Source: Ilumatobacter nonamiensis YM16-303 (GTDB lineage Bacteria; Actinomycetota; Acidimicrobiia; Acidimicrobiales; Ilumatobacteraceae). Taken from it: DNA of 39,436 nucleotides. The notes beneath the pieces are model-generated. The model had not been told where the DNA came from and did no database searches. It was given only the letters and a program-made list of their open reading frames with translations. Where the stretch lies: assembly GCF_000350145.1 (NCBI RefSeq), contig NZ_BAOL01000043.1, forward strand, positions 1-39,436, read 5' to 3'. Shown piece by piece: positions 17,527 to 36,400 of the stretch (position 1 is the first letter of the stretch; each line of letters begins with the position of its first letter). Made by a program: the position numbers and the translations under genes.

Positions 17527-17557
17527 CTGCGCGTCGGTGTCGCTCACCAAAGCGCAT
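17527..17557. repeat. Degenerate 13-5-13 palindrome between convergent genes
   Basis: CTGCGCGTCGGTG (17527-17539), TCGCT, then CACCAAAGCGCAT (17545-17557). It has exactly the 13-5-13 spacing and starts one base after the TGA of the esterase gene. Ten of 13 positions pair, including TGCGC/GCGCA and GGTG/CACC. It lies in the 42-bp gap between the esterase and P450 stops, so it could terminate both. Confidence 0.6.
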
Positions 17558-17567
17558 CGCGCCGAAC

Positions 17568-18836
17568 TCAGACGCTGAACTCGCAGGGCATCCGCTTGAT
17601 GCCGTTGATGAAACCGGAGACGAGGCGGTCGGGTTCGCCGGTGATCTCGAGATCGGGCAACTCGCGGAAGATCTCGTCGTACATCACCTGGATCTCGCGG
17701 CGGGCGAGGTTCGCCCCGAGACAGAAGTGCGGACCGCCGGCTCCGTAGCCCTCCATGTCCTTGGTGTTCGGACGGGTGATGTCGAAGCGGTGTCCGTCGG
17801 CGAACACGTCCTCGTCACGGTTGCCCGACCAGTACCACATGACGACCTTCTCGCCGGCGGCGATCGTGGTGTTGCCGACCGTGACGTCCTCGTTCGCCTT
17901 GCGACGCATGTGGATCACCGGCGACGCCCAGCGGACGATCTCGTCCGCAGCGGTGAGCGACATCTCGTCGAAGTTGTTCCGGAGCAGTTCACGCTGATCC
18001 GGGTGCTTCGTCAGCTGGTGCATGCCCCACGAGATCGCGTTGCGGGTGGTCTCGTTTCCGGCGACCGCCAAGAGGATGAAGAACGATCCGAACTCGGCCG
18101 GTGTGAGGCGCTCGCCGTCGACCTCGGCGTGCATCAGGACGGACGCGATGTCATCCGTCGGCGTGCGCAGTCGATCCTCGCCGAGCTGTTGTGCGTAGTC
18201 GAACATGCCGGAAGCGCCCACGATGAGGCCGTCGAGATCGAGCGTGAAATCGGGATCGCCGGCGCCGAGGATGATGTTGGTCCAGTCGAAGATCTGCTGC
18301 TCGTCCTCTTCGGGGACACCGAGCATGTCGCAGATGATCTGGAGGGGGAGTGGGGCGGCGAATGATTCGACGAAGTCGATCGGCTCACCCCCTGCGGCCT
18401 TCTCCCTGGCCGCGACCACGAGCCGCTTCGCTCGCGTCTTCACCGACTCTTCGATCGCCGCCACCGTCTTCGGGGTGAAGCCCTTCTGGACCAGCATCCG
18501 GAACTTCGCGTGGCGAGGGTTGTCCATCACGATCATCGAGCCGAAGAACTCGAGCGTTTCCGGGGGCTGCTCGCCGAGCGTGATGCCGCCGGCGGACGAG
18601 AACAGGTCGGCCTTGCGGTTGACCTCCTTGATGTCGTCGTAGGTGACCGCCGACCAGAATCCGGGCCCCGCGATGCCGCCCTCGATGACCGAGAGTTCCT
18701 CGTGGAAGCACATGCCGTCGCCGTGTTTCGACTCCTCGCGCAGCGCAACGAAGGCCTCGTTCCGCCGATCGAGCGGTTCGATCCAGAAGTCGTTGCTTCC
18801 GAGGTGGGCGTCGGCCACGGTCCGGTATGCGGGCAT
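17568..18836 (-). CDS. Cytochrome P450 (CYP125/124/142-like)
   Basis: Soluble bacterial P450 of 422 aa. The I-helix oxygen-activation motif is AGNETTRNAI, the K-helix ExxR is E-I-V-R in ADEIVRWASPVIHMRR, and the heme-ligand loop is GAGGPHFCLGANLARRE with the axial cysteine. The LLAVAGNETTRN and GGPHFCLG forms are those of the CYP125, CYP124 and CYP142 group, which hydroxylates the terminal carbon of sterol side chains or methyl-branched lipids. A branched-lipid substrate is therefore plausible but not proven. No ferredoxin gene lies nearby. ATG at 18836 is chosen because it gives the normal N-terminus; a start at 18875 is in frame. Divergent from the zinc-ribbon gene, 32 bp away. Confidence 0.92.
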   Translation of the reverse strand: MPAYRTVADAHLGSNDFWIEPLDRRNEAFVALREESKHGDGMCFHEELSVIEGGIAGPGFWSAVTYDDIKEVNRKADLFSSAGGITLGEQPPETLEFFGSMIVMDNPRHAKFRMLVQKGFTPKTVAAIEESVKTRAKRLVVAAREKAAGGEPIDFVESFAAPLPLQIICDMLGVPEEDEQQIFDWTNIILGAGDPDFTLDLDGLIVGASGMFDYAQQLGEDRLRTPTDDIASVLMHAEVDGERLTPAEFGSFFILLAVAGNETTRNAISWGMHQLTKHPDQRELLRNNFDEMSLTAADEIVRWASPVIHMRRKANEDVTVGNTTIAAGEKVVMWYWSGNRDEDVFADGHRFDITRPNTKDMEGYGAGGPHFCLGANLARREIQVMYDEIFRELPDLEITGEPDRLVSGFINGIKRMPCEFSV

Positions 18837-18855
18837 GTGCCCATGGTGGCAGTCG

Positions 18856-18861
18856 TAGTGT
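18856..18861 (+). promoter_or_regulatory. -10 element of a leaderless promoter for the zinc-ribbon gene
   Basis: TAGTGT ends 7 nt before the GTG at 18869, which supports that start over longer in-frame alternatives. Confidence 0.5.
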
Positions 18862-18868
18862 CGTCGTC

Positions 18869-19189
18869 GTGTCACTGGAGATCATCTGCCCGCGCTGCGA
18901 GTCGGACGACGACCTCCGCGGTACTCCGCTCGACGACGGGCGGATCCAGCTGACGTGTGAAGCGTGTTCGATCACGTGGGAGCGTGATCCGCGGCCGACC
19001 TGTCCGACGTGTGGCGGCGACGATCTCTACCACGTGCCGCAGGTGATCCTCGAGAAGTCCCGTGGGTCGCAGATGTCGGTGCAGGGAATTCACGTCGAGT
19101 ACGGCTGCTGGTCGTGCAACCCTCCCGAGGTGAAGGTGCGCGGCGGCCGAACTCATCACCTGCCTGACCGCCTCGACGGGAGCCAGTGA
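18869..19189 (+). CDS. Double zinc-ribbon protein of unknown function
   Basis: Protein of 106 aa with four CxxC pairs: CPRC (about 7-10), CEAC (31-34), CPTC (44-47) and CWSC (about 81-84). It starts MSLEIICPRCESDDDLRG, like a small transcript-elongation-type or rubredoxin-like ribbon, with a second ribbon after QVILEKSRGSQMSVQGIHVEYG. The C-terminus is basic (KVRGGRTHHLPDRLDG). I do not recognise the family. A nucleic-acid or protein-interaction role is the usual one for such ribbons. GTG at 18869 is supported by the TAGTGT hexamer 7 nt upstream. It is divergent from the P450 gene and just upstream of the acyl-AMP ligase. Its TGA is directly followed by a perfect copy of the palindromic element. 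Confidence 0.75.
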   Translation: MSLEIICPRCESDDDLRGTPLDDGRIQLTCEACSITWERDPRPTCPTCGGDDLYHVPQVILEKSRGSQMSVQGIHVEYGCWSCNPPEVKVRGGRTHHLPDRLDGSQ

Positions 19190-19191
19190 AG

Positions 19192-19222
19192 ATGTTCGTC
19201 GGTGAATGGCACCGACGAACAT
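19192..19222. repeat. Perfect 13-5-13 palindrome, copy A
   Basis: ATGTTCGTCGGTG (19192-19204), loop AATGG, CACCGACGAACAT (19210-19222): all 13 pairs match. It starts two bases (AG) after the TGA of the zinc-ribbon gene and lies 45 bp before the ligase start. As RNA it would be a strong tail-less terminator-like hairpin; as DNA it is a 31-bp palindrome. Confidence 0.92.
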
Positions 19223-19254
19223 GTGGGGTCATCTGCGGGCTCGATTCCTGTCGC

Positions 19255-19260
19255 TAGCGT
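19255..19260 (+). promoter_or_regulatory. -10 element of a leaderless promoter for the acyl-AMP ligase-like gene
   Basis: TAGCGT ends 7 nt before the ATG at 19268. The same hexamer and spacing occur before the genes at 31348 and 38460. Confidence 0.55.
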
Positions 19261-19267
19261 TCACTGA

Positions 19268-20968
19268 ATGGCCGACTCGACCATCTCTCGCCTCGAAGCT
19301 GCCGCCGACTCCGGAACCGGAGTGCGGTTCGTCGGCAAGTCCGTCATGCCGGACGGCGTGCCCGTGTACGTCGGCTGGGATCAGATCCACGACGAGGCGC
19401 GGGCCGTCGGGGCCGCGCTCCAGGCGAAAGGGCTCGTGCCCGGTGATCACGTCGCGGTGCTCGGCCCGACCAGCCGCGAGCTGATGACGATCGTGCGCGG
19501 CTGCTGGATGGCCGGCATCGCGTCGATGGTGCTTCCGTTGCCGATGCGGATGGGATCGCTCGACGTGTTCATCGAGTCGACGCGGGCGCGAATCCGACAC
19601 GGCGATGCGAAGTTGGTCCTGATCGACGACCAGCTCGCCGACTTCTACACCGCCGTCGAGGGTGATCCACCCATCGAACCGATGGCGTCGGTCATGCCCG
19701 GTGCGGCGAACGTACCCACTGGCGACGCGCTCGAACTGCCGCCACACGACCCGGAGCGGCTCGTCATCCTGCAGTACACGAGCGGGTCGACGAGCGAGCC
19801 GAAGGGCGTGATGATTCCCGACCGGGTCCTGTCGGCCAACCTCGACGCCACCTGCGAGGCAGCGGTCCTCGGTGCCGGCGAGACGATGGTCTCGTGGTTG
19901 CCCCTCTATCACGACATGGGGCTCGTCGGTTTCCTCGCTCTCCCGATGACGAAGGGGGTCGACCTGGTCCAGGCGGCGCCGCAGGACTTCCTCGCGCACC
20001 CGGGCAACTGGATGGACTGGATCTCCGAGCACCGGGGCACGGCGACCGCCGGACCCAACTTCTCGTGGGTGCTCGCCACGCGGGCGCTCAAGCGCAAGAC
20101 CGACCTCGACCTCTCGTCGCTGACGCTCGCGCTGTCGGGCGCTGAGCCCGTCGATCCGAAGGCGGTCGACGCGTTCGTCGCCGAAGCGCAGCGTTTCGGC
20201 TTCTCGCCCGGTGGCGTCTTCCCGGCCTTCGGGATGGCCGAGGTCGCGATTGCCGGCGCGTTCCCCGCTCGCGGTCGTGGCCTGGTCACCGACACCGTCG
20301 ACCGCCAGGTGCTCGAAACGCAGCGCGTGGCCAAGCCGATCGAGATCGACGATCCGGACGATCTCGCGCTCCGGGCCCGTCAACTCCCGCTGCTCGGCCG
20401 CGCCGTCCCGGGGCTCGAGATGAAGGTCGTCGATCCGGACACGCACGAATCGCTGCCCGAGCGCCACGTCGGGGAGCTGCTGCTGCGCGGTACGTCGGTC
20501 ACCCCCGGCTACTACAAGCGTCCCGATGCCACGGCTGCGCTGTTCGTCGACGACTGGCTCTGCACCGGCGACCTCGCCTATCTCCTCGACGGTGAACTCG
20601 TGATGTGCGGTCGGATCAAGGACGTGATCATCGTGGGCGGCCGGAACGTGTTCCCGGAGGACATCGAACGCGCGGTCGGCCCGCTCGACGGTGTGCGCGC
20701 CGGGAACGTGATCGCGCTCGGTGTCGAGGGGTACAAGGGCAAGGAGTCGGTCGTGGTCGTCGCCGAGGTGCGCCTGACCGACACGTCCGGGGACCTCGAC
20801 GACGTGCGCGCTCACGTCCACGAGCGGACGCTCGACGTGTGCGGGCTCCCGCCGCGCGACGTGATGCTCGTGCAGCCGGGAACACTGCCGAAGACCAGCA
20901 GTGGCAAGCTCCAGCGCGCCAAGTGTCGCGAGGAGTACCTCGACGAGGATCTGCAACTCATCGAGTGA
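19268..20968 (+). CDS. Fatty acyl-AMP ligase-like adenylate-forming enzyme
   Basis: Protein of 566 aa. Motifs: ILQYTSGSTSEPKGVMI (P-loop, about 166-182), WLPLYHDMGLVGFL (typical of FAAL/FadD32-like enzymes), LALSGAEPVD, FGMAEVAIAG in place of YGxTE, LCTGDLAYLLDGELVMCGRIKD, VGGRNVFPEDIERAV, and the A10 region LPKTSSGKLQRAKCREEYL with the catalytic lysine. The layout fits fatty acyl-AMP ligases, which activate fatty acids to acyl-AMP and pass them to carrier proteins instead of CoA. Whether the FAAL-specific insertion is present cannot be settled by eye, so an acyl-CoA synthetase is the alternative. There is no PKS, NRPS or acyl-carrier gene in the window. It is bracketed by two nearly identical palindromes (19192 and 20971). 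Confidence 0.82.
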   Translation: MADSTISRLEAAADSGTGVRFVGKSVMPDGVPVYVGWDQIHDEARAVGAALQAKGLVPGDHVAVLGPTSRELMTIVRGCWMAGIASMVLPLPMRMGSLDVFIESTRARIRHGDAKLVLIDDQLADFYTAVEGDPPIEPMASVMPGAANVPTGDALELPPHDPERLVILQYTSGSTSEPKGVMIPDRVLSANLDATCEAAVLGAGETMVSWLPLYHDMGLVGFLALPMTKGVDLVQAAPQDFLAHPGNWMDWISEHRGTATAGPNFSWVLATRALKRKTDLDLSSLTLALSGAEPVDPKAVDAFVAEAQRFGFSPGGVFPAFGMAEVAIAGAFPARGRGLVTDTVDRQVLETQRVAKPIEIDDPDDLALRARQLPLLGRAVPGLEMKVVDPDTHESLPERHVGELLLRGTSVTPGYYKRPDATAALFVDDWLCTGDLAYLLDGELVMCGRIKDVIIVGGRNVFPEDIERAVGPLDGVRAGNVIALGVEGYKGKESVVVVAEVRLTDTSGDLDDVRAHVHERTLDVCGLPPRDVMLVQPGTLPKTSSGKLQRAKCREEYLDEDLQLIE

Positions 20969-20970
20969 AG

Positions 20971-21001
20971 ATGTGCGTCGGTGACCGGCACCGACGCACA
21001 T
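20971..21001. repeat. Perfect 13-5-13 palindrome, copy B with a compensatory pair change
   Basis: ATGTGCGTCGGTG (20971-20983), loop ACCGG, CACCGACGCACAT (20989-21001). Relative to copies A and C, position 5 is G instead of T in the left arm and the partner position is C instead of A, so all 13 pairs remain. It starts two bases after the TGA of the ligase gene. Confidence 0.92.
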
Positions 21002-21038
21002 TTCGCGTCCGTTCATCGTCGCGATCAGGTGGTCGGTG

Positions 21039-21062
21039 GGTCGAGCTGCGACACTCTCGACC
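21039..21062 (+). promoter_or_regulatory. Inverted repeat over the -10 of the phosphonate/selenate-type operon
   Basis: GGTCGAG (21039-21045), ten bases, CTCGACC (21056-21062). The spacer contains GACACT (21050-21055), a -10-like hexamer 7 nt before the ATG at 21063. A protein bound here would cover the promoter, so it is a candidate operator; a hairpin is the alternative. Confidence 0.45.
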
Positions 21063-21098
21063 ATGACAAACACCACCATCACGGTGCGGCTCCAATGA
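21063..21098 (+). CDS. Possible 11-codon upstream ORF coupled to the binding-protein gene
   Basis: ATG at 21063 opens MTNTTITVRLQ and stops with TGA at 21096-21098, which overlaps the ATG (21095) of the binding protein as ATGA. It begins 7 nt after GACACT, the leaderless spacing used elsewhere in the window. The downstream ATG has no clear Shine-Dalgarno, so translation of the small ORF could feed ribosomes onto the transporter gene. Four of 11 residues are threonine; whether it acts as an attenuator peptide is not known. Confidence 0.4.
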   Translation: MTNTTITVRLQ

Positions 21099-22114
21099 GC
21101 CGCACTCGCCGGTCCGCCAGTTGGCGGGCACTCATCCCACTGAGCCTTCTGGCTCTCACTGCTGCGTCGTGCGCCGGCAGTGACGACTCCGGCAGCGACG
21201 AACCTCCGGGAAGCGCTGCCGCCGAGACGGACGGAACCTCCGAACCGGTCGAGGAATCCGAGTCGGCCGACGAGTCGGACTCACCCGTTCTGCACATCGG
21301 AGCGATTCCCGATCAGGAACCTGAGCGGCTCCAGCGCACCTACGGCCTCTTGGCCGATCACCTCGAGGAGGAACTCGCCGACGACGGTTTCACGACCGAC
21401 GTCGAGTACGTCCCGGTGACCGACTACTCCGGCGCCGTCACCGGCTTCGTGGTGGGTGATCTCGACGCTGTCTGGTTCGGCGGGCTCACCGGTGTGCAAG
21501 CGCAACTCGAGGTCGAGGGCGCTCAAGCCGTTGCACAACGTGACATCGACGAGGCGTTCACGTCCGTCTTCATCGCGGGAGCCGACACCGGGGTCGAGAC
21601 GATCGATGACGTCGCGGGACTCGCCGCGCTCGAAGGACAATCGTTCACGTTCGGTTCGGAATCGTCGACGTCAGGGCGGCTGATGCCGCAGTCGTTCCTC
21701 GCCGAAGCCGGGATCGATCCCGACGAGGACTTCGAGGGACAGCCCGGGTTCTCCGGCTCGCACGACGCCACGATCGAGCTCGTGGCGGCCGGGACCTACG
21801 ACGTCGGCGCGCTCAACTCCCAGGTCTGGGACGACCGCGTCGCCGACGGCACCGTCGACGAGACCGCGGTGGTCGAGGTCTTCCGGACTCCGCCGTACTA
21901 CGACTACCACTGGGTCGTGCAGCCGGATCTCGACGACGAATTCGGCGACGGGTTCACCGAGGCGTTCACCGAGGCGATGACCGCGCTCGACCCGGACGAT
22001 CCGGACGATGCCGAAGTGCTCGAGCTGTTCGGTGCCGGTGCATTCATCGAGACCGAGAACGGGAACTACGCGGCGATCGAAGCGGTCGGGCGCGATGCCG
22101 GCCTCATTCGCTGA
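21095..22114 (+). CDS. Phosphonate/selenate-type ABC transporter substrate-binding lipoprotein (PhnD-like)
   Basis: Protein of 339 aa. A lipoprotein signal (SLLALTAASC, lipidated Cys26) is followed by an acidic Ser/Glu/Asp linker, then a PhnD-type periplasmic fold: HIGAIPDQEPERLQRTYGLLADHL, VEYVPVTDYSGAVTGFVVGDLDAVWFGGLTGVQAQ, AQRDIDEAFTSVFIA, FTFGSESSTSGRLMPQSFLAEAG and PGFSGSHDATIELVAAGTYDVGALNSQVW. The DQEPERLQR, WFGGLTGVQA, AQRDID and FGSESSTSGRLMP signature is, to my recollection, that of the subfamily annotated as putative selenate-binding proteins, and differs from classical PhnD. The ligand is thus an oxyanion or phosphonate, not proven. First gene of a three-gene import operon with an ATPase and a fused permease. 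Confidence 0.85.
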   Translation: MSRTRRSASWRALIPLSLLALTAASCAGSDDSGSDEPPGSAAAETDGTSEPVEESESADESDSPVLHIGAIPDQEPERLQRTYGLLADHLEEELADDGFTTDVEYVPVTDYSGAVTGFVVGDLDAVWFGGLTGVQAQLEVEGAQAVAQRDIDEAFTSVFIAGADTGVETIDDVAGLAALEGQSFTFGSESSTSGRLMPQSFLAEAGIDPDEDFEGQPGFSGSHDATIELVAAGTYDVGALNSQVWDDRVADGTVDETAVVEVFRTPPYYDYHWVVQPDLDDEFGDGFTEAFTEAMTALDPDDPDDAEVLELFGAGAFIETENGNYAAIEAVGRDAGLIR

Positions 22115-22874
22115 ACCACTGGCGCTGAGCCTTCGCGACGTCGTCGTCGACCACCCGGTCGGCGGCGGCGTCGTGCGGGCACTCGACGGCGTCGACCTGG
22201 ACGTCGGAGCGGGCGAGCGGGTCGCGCTGCTGGGCTCGAGCGGTGCCGGGAAGTCGACACTGCTCGACGTGGTCGCCGGACTGGTTCGGCCGACGTCCGG
22301 CGACGTCGAGGTCCTCGGTCGACGGATCGCCGAGCTCGGTGGTGGTGCGTTGCGTCGACACCGCTCAGAGGTCGGCGTGATCCGGCAGGCACATGGTCTG
22401 CCCGGCGCGCTCCGCGTGGTGCACAACGTGAACGGCGGCCGACTCGGCGCGTGGTCCACCGTGCGTGCCCTGGCCTCGCTGATCGTGCCGATGGGTCGGA
22501 GCGACGTCGATGAAGCCTTGGGGCGAGTGGGCCTCGACGGGCTCGCCGACCGTCGCACCGGCGACCTGTCCGGCGGTCAGCAGCAGCGGGTCGCGGTCGC
22601 CCGCGTCCTCGTGCAGAACCCGGAACTGGTGTTGGCCGACGAACCGGTGTCGGCCGTCGACCCTCGGCTCAGCGCCGACGTCGTCGAATTGCTCTGCTCG
22701 ACGACCGAGCGCGAACCGCGACGAGACGCCGTCCTGCTCAGCCTCCACGATCCCACACTCGCTCGTGATCACGTCGATCGGATCGTCGGACTCCGCGAGG
22801 GACGGGTCGCGTTCGACCTGGCGGCCCAAGCGGTCGACTCCGGAATGCTGACGTCGCTCTACGCGCCGGCGTGA
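22095..22874 (+). CDS. ABC transporter ATPase (PhnC-like)
   Basis: Protein of 259 aa. Walker A is GSSGAGKST, the signature is LSGGQQQRVAVARVL, and Walker B is ELVLADEPVSAVD. The Q-loop segment VGVIRQAHGLPGALRVVHNVNGGRLG is similar to PhnC (which usually has NVLxGR). It energises import of the ligand captured by the upstream binding protein. Its ATG at 22095 lies inside the end of the binding-protein gene (20-bp overlap), so translation is coupled. The permease GTG starts 10 bp after its stop. Confidence 0.9.
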   Translation: MPASFAEPLALSLRDVVVDHPVGGGVVRALDGVDLDVGAGERVALLGSSGAGKSTLLDVVAGLVRPTSGDVEVLGRRIAELGGGALRRHRSEVGVIRQAHGLPGALRVVHNVNGGRLGAWSTVRALASLIVPMGRSDVDEALGRVGLDGLADRRTGDLSGGQQQRVAVARVLVQNPELVLADEPVSAVDPRLSADVVELLCSTTEREPRRDAVLLSLHDPTLARDHVDRIVGLREGRVAFDLAAQAVDSGMLTSLYAPA

Positions 22875-22884
22875 TCCCGATCCC

Positions 22885-24435
22885 GTGACCCTCACTCCCC
22901 GGCGCCGTCTGGTCCTGATCGGCGCGTTGGTCGTCGTCTGGGCGATCGGTCGCGCCGGGCTCTCCGGAGTCGTCAACACGTCGGGAGCTTCCGCGTTCCA
23001 GCGTTTCTGGAGGAGCGCGCTGTCGCCCGATCTGTCGGCGGACTTCCTGTCGTTGACGATCGAGGCCACCGCGACGACCGCTGCGTTCGCCGTCCTCGGT
23101 TCCGCGCTCGCGCTCCTGATCGGCGTGGCCGGAGCGCTGGCGATCTCCGAGCGGGCGATGGGGACCGGATGGTTGCGGCGGGCGGCGGAGGTCGTCGCGA
23201 CGGTTCCTCGCGCGGTGCACGAGATCCTCGTGGCGCTGCTGTTGATCCAGGTGCTCGGCTTCGACCCGATGGTGGCCGTCATCGCGATCGGGGTTCCCTT
23301 CGGTGCGGTCACGGCGAAGGTGTATGCCGACGCGCTCGACGACGCGGATCGTTCGGCCTACGACGGACTCCGGGCGTCGGGAGTGGGTCGGCTGACCGCC
23401 GTTGCGTACGGACTCGTCCCGTTGGTGCGCGGCGAGTTCGTGTCGTACGCGTTCTACCGATTCGAGTGTGCGATCCGCTCGGCCGCCGTGCTCGGGATCG
23501 TCGGGGTCGGCGGGTTGGGGTTCCAACTCGACATCAGCTTCGAATCGTTGCGGTACGACGAGATCTGGACGCTGATCTTCGCCCTGATGTTGCTCAGCGG
23601 AACCGCCGATGCGGTGTCGTCGTGGGTGCGCGGGCCGTCGGGTCCGAGCGACGGGGGACGATGGTTTCCGGTCGTCGCGGCCGTCGGTGTCGCGTGGTCG
23701 TGGTGGCAGGTCGGCCTCGACGTGTCGGTGTTGTGGTCCGCTCGGACGCTCGAACGCGGGCCCGAACTCCTGCGTGACCTGTTCCCTCCCGAGCTCGGTC
23801 CCGGCGGTTGGACCGAGCTGTGGTCGGCGACGGTCGACACGATGTCGCTGGTGGTCGTGGCCGTGGTGGTGGCCGCGTTGTTCGGTTTCGTCGGTGCCGC
23901 AGTGGTCCGTCGACCGGTGATCGACAAGCGGTCCGGGCTTTCGGCGGTCGGCGACGGGTTCCGAATCGTCGTCGGTCGACTCGTGCTCCTCACGGCTCGG
24001 GCGGTCCCGGCGCCCGTCTGGGCGTTCCTGTTCGTCCTGGTGCTGTATCCCGGGATCTGGCCGGGTGCGGTTGCACTGGGTGTGTACAACGCAGGTGTCC
24101 TCGGACGTCTGTACGCCGAGGCGATCGAATCGCAGCCCCCGGAGCCGGAGCGGGCGGCCGCTCTCGCGGGTGCCGGACGGTGGACGAGGTGGGCGTACGG
24201 GGTCATCCCCGGCGCTGCTCCGCGCCTCGTGTCGCTCACCGTGTACCGCTCCGAGGTGATGGTGCGTGAGACGATCGTGATCGGCGTGGTCGGTGCGGGC
24301 GGGCTCGGGCAGTTGCTTCGCGACCATCTGGTCGCCCGGGATTTCGGCGCCGTGATGGGGGTCGTGATCGTGTTGATCGTGCTCGCCATCGCGGCGGATG
24401 CACTCGGTCGGGTCATCCGGCGAGTTCTCCGCTGA
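22885..24435 (+). CDS. Fused double permease of the phosphonate/selenate-type ABC transporter
   Basis: Protein of 516 aa containing two complete PhnE-type BPD_transp_1 domains in one chain. Domain 1 (about 1-245) has the EAA-like loop YDGLRASGVGRLTAVAYGLVPLV. Domain 2 (about 270-516) has the EAA loop ERAAALAGAGRWTRWAYGVIPGAAPRL and RETIVIGVVGAGGLGQLL. About six membrane segments are visible per half. Normally PhnE works as a homodimer or as PhnE1/PhnE2; here the two halves are one polypeptide. GTG at 22885 is used because the alternative GTG at 22871 runs into a stop after a few codons. Its TGA is followed by a degenerate copy of the palindromic element. Confidence 0.88.
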   Translation: MTLTPRRRLVLIGALVVVWAIGRAGLSGVVNTSGASAFQRFWRSALSPDLSADFLSLTIEATATTAAFAVLGSALALLIGVAGALAISERAMGTGWLRRAAEVVATVPRAVHEILVALLLIQVLGFDPMVAVIAIGVPFGAVTAKVYADALDDADRSAYDGLRASGVGRLTAVAYGLVPLVRGEFVSYAFYRFECAIRSAAVLGIVGVGGLGFQLDISFESLRYDEIWTLIFALMLLSGTADAVSSWVRGPSGPSDGGRWFPVVAAVGVAWSWWQVGLDVSVLWSARTLERGPELLRDLFPPELGPGGWTELWSATVDTMSLVVVAVVVAALFGFVGAAVVRRPVIDKRSGLSAVGDGFRIVVGRLVLLTARAVPAPVWAFLFVLVLYPGIWPGAVALGVYNAGVLGRLYAEAIESQPPEPERAAALAGAGRWTRWAYGVIPGAAPRLVSLTVYRSEVMVRETIVIGVVGAGGLGQLLRDHLVARDFGAVMGVVIVLIVLAIAADALGRVIRRVLR

Positions 24436-34052: not shown

Positions 34053-34508
34053 GTGAGGCCCGAACCGAGCAAGGCGTTTGATCCCGGGGAGTGGGAGCCG
34101 GAGCGGGCGGGGGAGGCACTGCGTGCGCACGGATGCCGGGTCACCCAGCCGCGGGTCGCGGTGCTGCGCGCACTGCTCGAGCATGGTGGAACGATCGATG
34201 CGCTCGGGTTGACCGCACTGGCCCAGCGGTACGAACCGGGGATCCACGAGGCGACCGTGTATCGGACGGTGAACGTGCTGTCGGAGGTGGGCATCGCCTC
34301 CCACGTGCACGCCGGGCACGGCCCGTCGCTGGTCCGGCTCGCGGGTGACGAGCAACTGGTCGCCGTGTGCCGGGACTGTGGGGCGATTGCTCCGATCCCG
34401 GAGGAGTCGGTCGCACAGCTGGTCGAGTCCGTCGAGGCGCGAACCGGGTTTCTCCTCGAACCGGGGCACTTCGCGCTCGAAGGGGTGTGCGGGGAGTGCT
34501 CCCCATGA
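34053..34508 (+). CDS. Fur-family metal-responsive regulator
   Basis: Protein of 151 aa. The winged helix (about 18-95) contains HGCRVTQPRVAVLRALLEHG and recognition helix HEATVYRTVNVLSEVG. The C-terminal dimerisation domain has structural zinc cysteines CRDC (106-109) and CGEC (146-149). Possible sensing ligands include H84, H86 and H89 in ASHVHAGHGPS and H139 in EPGHF. The usual His-rich stretch just before the first CxxC (HHHxxC in many Fur and Zur proteins) is replaced by DEQLVAVC, so the sensor site differs from the textbook one. Being encoded after znuABC-like genes, it probably represses them in response to their metal. Zur, Mur or Nur identity cannot be decided. Its stop overlaps the phzF-like start (ATGA). 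Confidence 0.88.
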   Translation: MRPEPSKAFDPGEWEPERAGEALRAHGCRVTQPRVAVLRALLEHGGTIDALGLTALAQRYEPGIHEATVYRTVNVLSEVGIASHVHAGHGPSLVRLAGDEQLVAVCRDCGAIAPIPEESVAQLVESVEARTGFLLEPGHFALEGVCGECSP

Positions 34509-35347
34509 CGAGTCGACGATTCATGCAACTCGACGTCTTCGCCTCGGGACCGTTCACGGGGAATCCGCTGGCGGTCGTTCTCGACGGAGAGGGCCTGTCG
34601 ACCGCCGAGATGCAGCAGATCACCGACTGGACCAACTTGTCCGAAGCGACGTTCCTGTCGGCCCCGACTCATCCCGAGGCCGACTATCGAGTGCGGATCT
34701 TCTGCCCGGGGCGTGAGCTCCCGTTTGCCGGGCACCCGACCTTGGGTTCGTGTCAGGCGTGGCTGTCCGGTGGCGGTGTGCCGATGAGCACCGGTCGAAT
34801 CGTGCAGGAGTGTGGCGCCGGGCTGATTGCCATTCGCCGCGATGGCGATCGCCTCGCGTTCGCCGCGCCGCCGATGATCCGGACGGGGCCGGTCGACCCG
34901 GCGCTGCTCGAGCGGCGGATCCGGCTGATCGGTCTCGACGAGTCCGATGTCGTGGCGTCGGCGTGGATCGACAACGGTCCCGGCTGGATGGGGATCCTGC
35001 TGGAGTCGGCCGATGCGGTTCTCGACGTCGACGTTCCGCACGCATCCGAGCCCGGATTCGACGTCGGTCTCGTCGGCCTGCGCGGCCCGGAGAGCGACTG
35101 CGCCATCGAAGTGCGGGCGTTCTTCGCCGACGGTTCCGGATCGATTCGCGAGGATCCGGTCACCGGCAGTCTGAATGCATCGGTCGCTCAGTGGCTCACG
35201 GAGACCGGCCGCGTCGAGGCGCCGTACGTCGCAGCGCAAGGTCAGCAGCTCGGCCGACGCGGGCGCGTGTACGTCGAGGCCGACGACGGCGAGCTCTGGA
35301 TCGGCGGCCGCAGCACCGTGTCGATCACCGGCACGCTGTCGACGTGA
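34505..35347 (+). CDS. PhzF-family isomerase-like protein
   Basis: Protein of 280 aa with the diaminopimelate-epimerase-like double fold of PhzF. It has MQLDVFASGPFTGNPLAVVLD at the N-terminus, NLSEATF with the catalytic glutamate E47, and FCPGRELPFAGHPTLGSCQAWL. The second half has VRAFFADGSGSIREDPVTGSLNASVAQWL. Most members outside phenazine clusters are of unknown function, probably isomerases or hydratases of small metabolites; no phenazine genes are near. The ATG overlaps the fur stop, so the two are coupled, which is an unusual partner for a metal regulator. Its TGA is followed two bases later by perfect palindrome copy C. Confidence 0.88.
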   Translation: MTSRRFMQLDVFASGPFTGNPLAVVLDGEGLSTAEMQQITDWTNLSEATFLSAPTHPEADYRVRIFCPGRELPFAGHPTLGSCQAWLSGGGVPMSTGRIVQECGAGLIAIRRDGDRLAFAAPPMIRTGPVDPALLERRIRLIGLDESDVVASAWIDNGPGWMGILLESADAVLDVDVPHASEPGFDVGLVGLRGPESDCAIEVRAFFADGSGSIREDPVTGSLNASVAQWLTETGRVEAPYVAAQGQQLGRRGRVYVEADDGELWIGGRSTVSITGTLST

Positions 35348-35349
35348 AG

Positions 35350-35380
35350 ATGTTCGTCGGTGCCCGGCACCGACGAACAT
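35350..35380. repeat. Perfect 13-5-13 palindrome, copy C, filling a convergent gap
   Basis: ATGTTCGTCGGTG (35350-35362), loop CCCGG, CACCGACGAACAT (35368-35380). It starts two bases after the phzF-like TGA, and its last base abuts the stop triplet of the opposing oxidoreductase gene (35381-35383). It fills essentially all of the intergenic space and could act as a bidirectional terminator. Confidence 0.92.
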
Positions 35381-36400
35381 TCAGGCGGCTCGGAGGTCGG
35401 CCATCACCTTGGCCCAGCGCTCGGGATCGCTGGCGTAGGGGGCGTAGAAGCTGATCCGCTGGATCACGTCGCCGTAGCGGCGGGACAACTCCGGTGCGAC
35501 CTGCTCGGGTTCGCCGACGACCGCGAACGTGTTCAGGATCTCATCGTCGATCAGGGTGCCCATCTTCTCCCACTCGCCCTGCTTCGACATCGTGTTCAAC
35601 TCGTCCTGCAAACCGCCCCAGCCGTGCGCGTCGAGGACGGGTCGGTAGGCCGGGGTCGACCCGTAGAACGCGATCTGCTGACGCGTGCCGATGGCGGCCT
35701 TCTCGATCTCCTCGTCGGTGTTGCCCGTGACGACGAACGACGGGCCCACGATCTCGAAGCCCTCCAGCGTCTTGCCGGCCTTCGCCCGACCGCGTTCGAG
35801 CGCCGGAATCGTGACCTCGCGAAGGAACTTCTCGGTCGTGAAGCCGTGGCAGATGAAGCCGTCGCACACCTCGCCGGCGACCTCGGTCATCAGCGGACCG
35901 ACACCGGCGAGAAACACCTTCGGGGTGCCGAAGTCACCGAGATCCTCGGGATCCGGAGCGAAGAACGGCGTCATCAACGTGTGTCGGTAGAACTCGCCGC
36001 GGAACTCGAGCTTCTCGCCGGTCTCCCACGTGTTCCAGATGGCGCGCATCGCGAGCACGAACTCGCGCATGCGTGCCGCCGGCTTCGACCACTCCATCGA
36101 GAACCGCTTCTCGATGTGCGGTTTGATCTGGCTGCCGAGTCCCAGGACGAACCGACCCTTCGAGTAGGCCTGGAGGTCCCACGCGGTGTTCGCGGTGGTC
36201 ATCGGGCTGCGCGCGAACGCGACGGCGATCGACGTGCCGATCTCCAACTCACTCGTGTGCTCGGCTGCGAGGAGCAGCGGAAGGAACGGGTCGTGTGCCG
36301 TCTCGGCGGTCCACGCACCGGAGTAGCCCTCTGCCTCGGTCCTCTTGGCGTTGGCAGCCACGTTGGCCAGGTCGGTTCCGATGTTTCCGTCGACTTTCAT
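35381..36400 (-). CDS. LLM-class (F420-type) oxidoreductase
   Basis: Luciferase-like monooxygenase-fold TIM barrel of 339 aa. Landmarks are GYSGAWTAETAHDPFLPLLLAAEHT, LEIGTSIAVAFARSPMTTANTAWDLQAYSKGRFVLGLGSQIKPHIEKRF, MREFVLAMRAIWNTWETGEKLEFRGEFYRH and VFLAGVGPLMTEVAGEVCDGFICHG. These match the F420-dependent subgroup abundant in mycobacteria and Acidimicrobiia. It probably oxidises or reduces an alcohol or enone using F420; the substrate is unknown. The ATG at 36400 has a TACTGT hexamer 6 nt upstream on its strand, so it can be expressed as a leaderless mRNA, as well as from the PAC2 gene 15 bp upstream. Confidence 0.87.
   Translation of the reverse strand: MKVDGNIGTDLANVAANAKRTEAEGYSGAWTAETAHDPFLPLLLAAEHTSELEIGTSIAVAFARSPMTTANTAWDLQAYSKGRFVLGLGSQIKPHIEKRFSMEWSKPAARMREFVLAMRAIWNTWETGEKLEFRGEFYRHTLMTPFFAPDPEDLGDFGTPKVFLAGVGPLMTEVAGEVCDGFICHGFTTEKFLREVTIPALERGRAKAGKTLEGFEIVGPSFVVTGNTDEEIEKAAIGTRQQIAFYGSTPAYRPVLDAHGWGGLQDELNTMSKQGEWEKMGTLIDDEILNTFAVVGEPEQVAPELSRRYGDVIQRISFYAPYASDPERWAKVMADLRAA

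Follow-up and report, generated by a model that had tools for sequence, protein, structure and literature searches.

Short palindromes behind bacterial genes are features of several described systems: REP sequences with their REP-associated Y1 transposases (RAYTs), intrinsic terminators, and the uptake-sequence terminators of Neisseria and Pasteurellaceae, in which one genome-specific word stands in inverted pairs behind genes. REPs are found mainly downstream of genes and their GTAG termini often provide a TAG stop codon, according to the part of the source available (PMC3733652), and the consulted portion of a 2010 survey describes REP palindromic features maintained by complementary mutations and suitable RAYTs in Gammaproteobacteria only (PMC2817692). 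In excerpts from later work, REP classes outlive their RAYT and switches of the flanking REP occur (PMC3686654), and a group 3 enzyme cuts mismatched stems poorly, as it requires the stem to be matched and particular bases in the loop (PMC8266576). The available sections of a 2018 survey give only IS200-type members for high-G+C Actinobacteridae and report no REP-like sequences near subclass 2.1 (PMC6006769). A search of open-licence PMC text found no paper on the palindromes analysed here. The Acidimicrobiia, to which the present genome is assigned, are not usually placed in the Actinobacteridae.

The window, meaning the whole stretch of 39,436 nt that was analysed, comes from the 4.28-Mb assembly of Ilumatobacter nonamiensis YM16-303 (399 contigs; 67% G+C in the part read). 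Its relevant features are given below, with arm pair 5 denoting the fifth base counted from the outer end of the arm, together with its partner.

17527-17557, unstranded: diverged fourth copy of the palindrome, 10 of 13 pairs; the stop of a P450 gene lies 10 nt away
17568-18875, minus strand: the P450 gene by the fourth copy
18827-19189, plus strand: small ORF ending 2 nt ahead of copy A; zinc-ribbon matches only, under the Pfam cut-offs
19192-19222, unstranded: copy A, arm pair 5 T-A, loop AATGG, starting 2 nt past a TGA
19268-20968, plus strand: AMP-binding enzyme (PF00501), with copy B at its 3′ end
20966-20970, plus strand: TGAAG, the upstream gene's stop codon plus 2 nt, left of copy B
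20971-21001, unstranded: copy B, arms 20971-20983 and 20989-21001, loop ACCGG, arm pair 5 G-C
21095-22114, plus strand: phosphonate-type periplasmic binding protein (PF12974), the next gene downstream of copy B
22095-22874: ABC ATPase, after the PF12974 gene
22885-24435: permease, after the ABC ATPase
34496-35347, plus strand: PhzF-like protein (PF02567), left of copy C
35345-35347 (plus) and 35381-35383 (minus): convergent stops around copy C
35350-35380, unstranded: copy C, arm pair 5 T-A, loop CCCGG, occupying the gap between the convergent stops
35381-36400, minus strand: luciferase-like monooxygenase (PF00296), right of copy C and convergent

Copy B has 13-nt arms that are 100% complementary with 5 nt between them, and copies A and C likewise have perfect 13-nt arms around 5 nt, giving a total of 31 nt. 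A search of the window with a 31-nt pattern admitting both variants and up to three mismatches found exactly these three places, each with 0 mismatches. As the original prediction had it, copy B differs from copies A and C by a G-C in place of T-A at arm pair 5, with all 13 pairs intact. A chance palindrome was rejected, there being no match in 100 dinucleotide shuffles. The plus strand of copy B with its flanks was predicted to fold as RNA at -29.7 kcal/mol (z -6.4, none of 200 shuffles as good), and the same stretch as DNA at -19.1 (z -5.8). All three copies start two bases past a TGA, and the stop of the convergent luciferase-like gene abuts copy C on the right. Copy B stands between the AMP-binding enzyme gene and the phosphonate-type transporter operon, which are co-directional, and since the TGAAG to its left matches the YGARA foot of the element described below, that foot contains the stop codon.

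The arms recur throughout the genome: there are 17 occurrences of GTCGGTG-N5-CACCGAC and 0 of the reversed pattern, and a single arm with at most one mismatch is present 284 times against 23 for its reversed form. Copies were collected with a family model built from 26 copies, themselves picked by likeness to the arm consensus with N at position 5; because the model held sequence alone, pairing could not be rewarded. Only the best 150 of 11172 first-look candidates were scored, so weaker copies may be missing, and the 150 matches collapse to 81 places (76 fetched stretches and five in the window). The family thus comprises at least 81 places, 74 of which align in register, and as a short palindrome present in many copies outside genes it resembles REPs. 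The seven places out of register, C349 and C319 among them, were excluded from the counts; C349 at least resembles a copy whose loop has 4 nt. Neighbouring places on a contig, among the 81, are always more than 1 kb apart, and therefore no REPIN-like pair is found among them. Four contigs end exactly at near-identical copies with a CCWGG loop (G000:C122:4546, C216:5409, C261:11409 and C287:28413), as if the assembly had been broken there, and a RAYT gene lying between copies of this kind could have dropped out of it.

Among these copies the arms vary with their pairing preserved. In register, 795 of 960 cells (82.8%) are paired, and sliding the partner by 1-3 bases brings this to 17-34%. At pair 5 the 74 copies comprise 21 G-C, 20 T-A, 17 C-G and 16 unpaired, so that 58 are paired against 23.4 expected with independent arms; pair 4 is T-A in 43, C-G in 13 and unpaired in 18, and pair 9 is C-G in 33, T-A in 13, G-C in one and unpaired in 27. 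One duplicate 31-mer was removed and partners were permuted 5000 times among the 73 distinct copies, in a test that ignores relatedness and whose counts are not probabilities. Pair 5 was Watson-Crick in 57 of 73 copies against a shuffled mean of 23.2, and pair 4 in 55 against 37.9, with no shuffle as high in either case; for pair 9 the figures were 47 against 36.9, with 31 of 5000 shuffles as high. Pairs 1, 2, 7 and 8 gave no clear covariation (263, 1709, 915 and 598 of 5000 shuffles as high), and pairs 3, 6 and 10-13 are almost invariant. With T-A as the reference, the 73 distinct copies hold 37 compensated and 16 unpaired states at pair 5, so arm mismatches are not as frequent genome-wide as compensated pairs. 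This excess and the covariation at pairs 4, 5 and 9 support the original prediction that the palindrome is acted on as a unit. The further suggestion that copy B itself underwent two changes found no support: G-C is the commonest state at pair 5, and copy B may therefore have carried it from the start. A paired change unique to copy B was rejected, G-C being present in 21 of the 74 copies. Within a pair-5 class, likeness over the rest of the copy averages 21.44 of 27 positions and between classes 21.12, a difference reached in none of 2000 shuffles, and the nearest neighbour is of the same class in 21.6 of 58 copies against 18.8 expected. With so weak a link between the class and the other positions of the copy, the pair-5 state holds little lineage structure.

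The comparison of the same locus in sister strains, also proposed originally, could be made in part: G009 alone of 40 relatives matched both sides (74% identity), the relatives compared being distant ones with no sister strain among them. The family hairpin is absent at the G009 counterpart of the copy B locus, and no clean empty site was found among these distant relatives. In G001 (L043) the 3′ end of the AMP-binding homologue has another strong hairpin, unlike that of the family, which is centred on GGTGTCTGACC and has a predicted energy of -29.4 kcal/mol.

The element measures about 41 bp, with the consensus YGARA-ATGTNCGTYGGTG-MCNGK-CACCRACGNACAT-TYTCR, and its inner arm GGTG..CACC is almost fixed. 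Loop positions C2 (72 of 74 copies) and G4 (69 of 74) are near-fixed although pairing is impossible in a 5-nt loop; M and K stand at the two ends of the loop in 59 of 74 copies, and these two positions do not covary (25 pairs against 30.3 expected). The loop centre is G or C in 51 of 74 copies, which makes MCNGK looser than the YCWGR found beside RAYTs and counts against a REP-like reading. Outside the arms the YGARA foot is present on both sides, with CGA on 30 and TGA on 26 of 144 sides at -5 to -3, and no covariation of the outer foot pairs was seen. Where its Y is T the foot contains TGA, which is often the stop codon of the neighbouring gene. The GTAG/GTGG tag of REPs is absent from the family: GT[AG]G stands no further than 8 nt from the foot in 6 and 2 of the 74 copies on the two strands, and in two relatives in 1 and 1 of 32 copies (G016) and 1 and 0 of 35 (G003).

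Gene ends were taken from a simple codon-usage gene caller and are rough, 16 of the 74 copies falling inside called ORFs and nine being unclear. Next to copies there are 91 called gene 3′ ends, of which 72 are no more than 15 nt away and 49 of them only 0-3 nt; of 35 called 5′ ends one is within the 15 nt. The same caller places 27 copies between convergent genes, 20 between co-directional and two between divergent ones. Part of the 16 copies inside ORFs are probably miscalls; copy A is scored as divergent despite the small ORF that stops 2 nt ahead of it, and the luciferase-like gene to the right of copy C, which Pfam supports, is missed. An older sorting (26 convergent, 37 one-sided, 11 none) counted antisense frames as genes, and the G-U and tail tests given below rest on it.

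With a confidence that goes little past even, copy B is read here as a member, or a relic, of a dispersed family of REP-like elements of the RAYT type that lack the GTAG tag and keep their pairing as a unit. Such elements would be spread by REP-associated Y1 (HUH, IS200-like) transposases, the RAYTs; the transposase would recognise a hairpin of single-stranded DNA, and it is this recognition that would keep the pairing. Copies would persist mainly behind genes, and some may also influence mRNA 3′ ends. The paired change in copy B would then be family variation kept by the hairpin requirement, and either two successive changes or a template switch from one arm to the other would have produced it. 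The reading draws on the covariation and the compensated excess, the position at gene 3′ ends, the near-fixed core and loop bases and the relatives described below, and the published behaviour of REPs cited above agrees with it. Counting against it are the missing tag, the lack of REPIN-like pairs and of an empty site, the other arms beside the only Y1 gene found in the own genome, the single public RAYT locus in 80 with perfect-arm core palindromes on both sides, and the lack of a strict association of core counts with RAYTs.

The core of the element extends to relatives. Of 60 genomes, most hold more matches to GGTGMCNGKCACC than to the reversed control, and in some the excess is strong, with 60 against 3 in the own genome, 104 against 2 in G016, 54 against 1 in G003 and, in G025 of another family, 51 against 2. 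Arms were inspected in G016 and G003, at 35 loci each of the 104 and 54 cores, mostly chosen for CCWGG, and 32 and 35 copies were obtained. They are species-specific around the common core (GTYACATCTGGTGCCWGG.. in G003; GTAACAGATGGTGCCWGG.. and GTTACGGTTGGTGCCWGG.. in G016), and these palindromes are likewise close to stop codons. Paired counts, set against simple independence, are higher at pairs 1, 3, 6 and 8 in G016 and at pairs 3 and 4 in G003, and some of the excess in G016 clearly comes from contrasts among subfamilies. Six interspecies alignments begin by a palindrome in both genomes (C139/L222, C310/L239, C349/L226 and C319:3677/L200 with G003; C336/L206 and C392/L183 with G016). In these six cases the 3′ end of a homologous gene seems to carry species-specific arms.

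Matches to PF01797 (Y1_Tnp) were present in 14 of the 60 genomes. Among 16 RAYT-like loci of the genus and family, core palindromes stand on both sides at L245, L261 and L254, and a close variant, GTC-TCWGA-GAC, on both sides at L257; L248 of the own genome has one full core palindrome and one cut by the contig end, L259 of G016 has one with the other side beyond the contig, and L253 has a weak one. At the loci with core palindromes on both sides, L264 (below) among them, the palindrome on the left is centred on A and that on the right on T, an inverted pair. A core palindrome is absent at nine of the 16 loci, which counts against the REP-like reading; two of these carry other palindromes, on both sides at L252 and one at L250. 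A scan of public RAYTs listed at least 559 relatives, and among the 80 loci kept the Ilumatobacter locus L264 is the sole case with perfect-arm core palindromes on both sides. In G007, a relative assembled as one contig (C1), GTGTCWGACAC cores are often paired 20-60 bp apart, for example at 2039129-2040128 and at L357, and also flank a Y1 gene at 2039177-2040073.

For G016, the RAYT at L259 bears, on the sole side within the contig, the arms of the dispersed family of that genome, with an exact match in 11 of the 32 fetched copies. For the copy-B family a cognate Y1 gene was not found, nor were inverted copies of its own palindrome flanking a RAYT gene, the only Y1 gene found in the own genome (L248) having other arms; the transposase serving this family may be lost or unassembled. 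Nine genomes have at least 30 cores, five with a PF01797 match and four (G025, G028, G041 and G042) without one, and a RAYT alignment search gave two pieces in G041 and nothing in G025 and G042. G002, G004, G005 and G006 have Y1 matches yet hold 2-9 cores. Core counts and RAYTs are thus not strictly associated, and the link of the copy-B family to RAYTs is one of likeness, not of a found gene.

A second family in the own genome, CCATCGGGTG-TCWGA-CACCCGATGG, has arms like those beside the own RAYT and occurs in imperfect dispersed copies, one pair of which lies 62 bp apart, as in a REPIN.

G000:C360, 907-1908, minus strand: own RAYT ORF (L248), beside which stand arms like those of the second family
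L065:22, L072:19131, L072:19193, L082:7142, L114:2997 and L008:862: dispersed copies of the second family

Two similar 16-17-bp palindromes, GCGTTACGTNACGGGT-CTG-ACCC.., at L065:4810-4846 and L076:3279-3313 of the own genome are possibly a third family.

A broader proposal, to which we give tentative credence well short of even, is that these palindromes form an undescribed class of tagless, nearly mirror-symmetric REPs with the common core GTG-xCNGx-CAC, dispersed by the lineage's own RAYTs and settling exactly at stop codons with a YGARA foot that gives TGA. In the present genome a stem position free in its letters yet kept paired would have undergone many changes on both arms, leaving little lineage structure and a natural record of template switching from arm to arm or of recognition of the hairpin.

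The alternative that survives best holds that the palindromes originated and evolve where they stand as transcription terminators, many of them bidirectional for convergent genes, with the covariation reflecting selection on an RNA hairpin; we judge it unlikely, with a chance large enough to need weighing. It fits the strong hairpins directly behind stop codons, with their stable G+C-rich stem-loop, and the 27 of 74 copies called convergent, and in the 37 one-sided copies T occupies positions +1 to +3 in 50-65% and gene-strand G-U outnumbers A-C by 30 to 17. The G-U bias, however, is not significant (p 0.08), comes to 34 against 25 when relatives are added (p 0.30) and is absent in the convergent copies (16 against 19), and in the one-sided copies the T run has its equal in a run of A at the opposite end of the stem, which makes it a property of the element. 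A terminator-like T run after the stem is wanting, copy C being followed by TCAGGCGG and the family having T at +1 to +3 only at the frequency just given, and a scan of 19000-23000 that needs 5 T in 8 calls no terminator at copy A or B. Over 440 kb, strong hairpins behind called genes are barely above shuffles (0.33 against 0.22 in convergent gaps of at least 40 nt, most classes being equal), and termination needs neither fixed loop bases nor common arms. The tests for termination are thus mostly negative, and an effect on mRNA ends is possible.

A second alternative, which appears quite improbable, invokes no functional selection: hairpin-templated replication errors (template switching) would copy one arm onto the other, undoing or doubling arm mutations. 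Template switching has been proposed to create and maintain hairpin stems, although in the portion of the paper available its authors find it less clearly shown that short stems are maintained (PMC8794818), and the weak tie of the pair-5 class to the rest of the copy, as if it had often changed, agrees with it. Alone, however, it would leave the fixed core and loop bases unexplained, and pairs 1, 2 and 7 and the YGARA feet are often mismatched, without clear covariation. That the core is the binding site of a dimeric protein on double-stranded DNA is very improbable. The fixed but unpaired bases, arranged as mirror images (loop C2/G4, the M/K ends and the YGARA feet), would suit such a protein, but recognition by letters does not account for a pair 5 that varies among three letters yet stays paired, and the copies stand at 3′ ends, not upstream of genes.

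If the REP-like reading of copy B is right, REP/RAYT biology extends past the groups described in the available parts of the two surveys (PMC2817692; PMC6006769), and palindromes of the REP type exist without the GTAG tag. The roughly seventy copies in one genome are material for studying paired hairpin change and a caution against annotating such hairpins simply as terminators.

Like intrinsic (Rho-independent) terminators, bidirectional ones included, the family places a stable hairpin directly behind stop codons and also between convergent genes, but it differs from them in a run of about three T mirrored by A, in fixed loop bases and in arms common to many copies. With the uptake-sequence terminators it shares a genome-specific word, inverted pairs and a position behind genes, whereas here the arms change in letter while staying paired and several species have the core in common. 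The TIRYT, which are the Y1 proteins of subclass 2.1 and have terminal inverted repeats (Quentin et al. 2018, available sections of PMC6006769), are alike in that a RAYT-like Y1 gene ends in inverted repeats; here the ends are the hairpin palindromes themselves, dispersed in G016. The REP/REPIN and RAYT (TnpA_REP) systems of Gammaproteobacteria are alike in their short dispersed palindromes behind genes or between convergent genes, varying with pairing kept, in the foot that can provide a stop codon and, in relatives, in an inverted pair that flanks a Y1 gene and matches dispersed copies. They differ in that the copy-B family is without a GTAG/GTGG tag, is nearly mirror-symmetric with a fixed core xCNGx loop, and consists of single copies, not pairs, in an actinobacterial host where its own RAYT was not found. 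The REP/RAYT kind is known, and the present palindromes depart from what has been published in having no tag, in the symmetry of their core and in their lineage.
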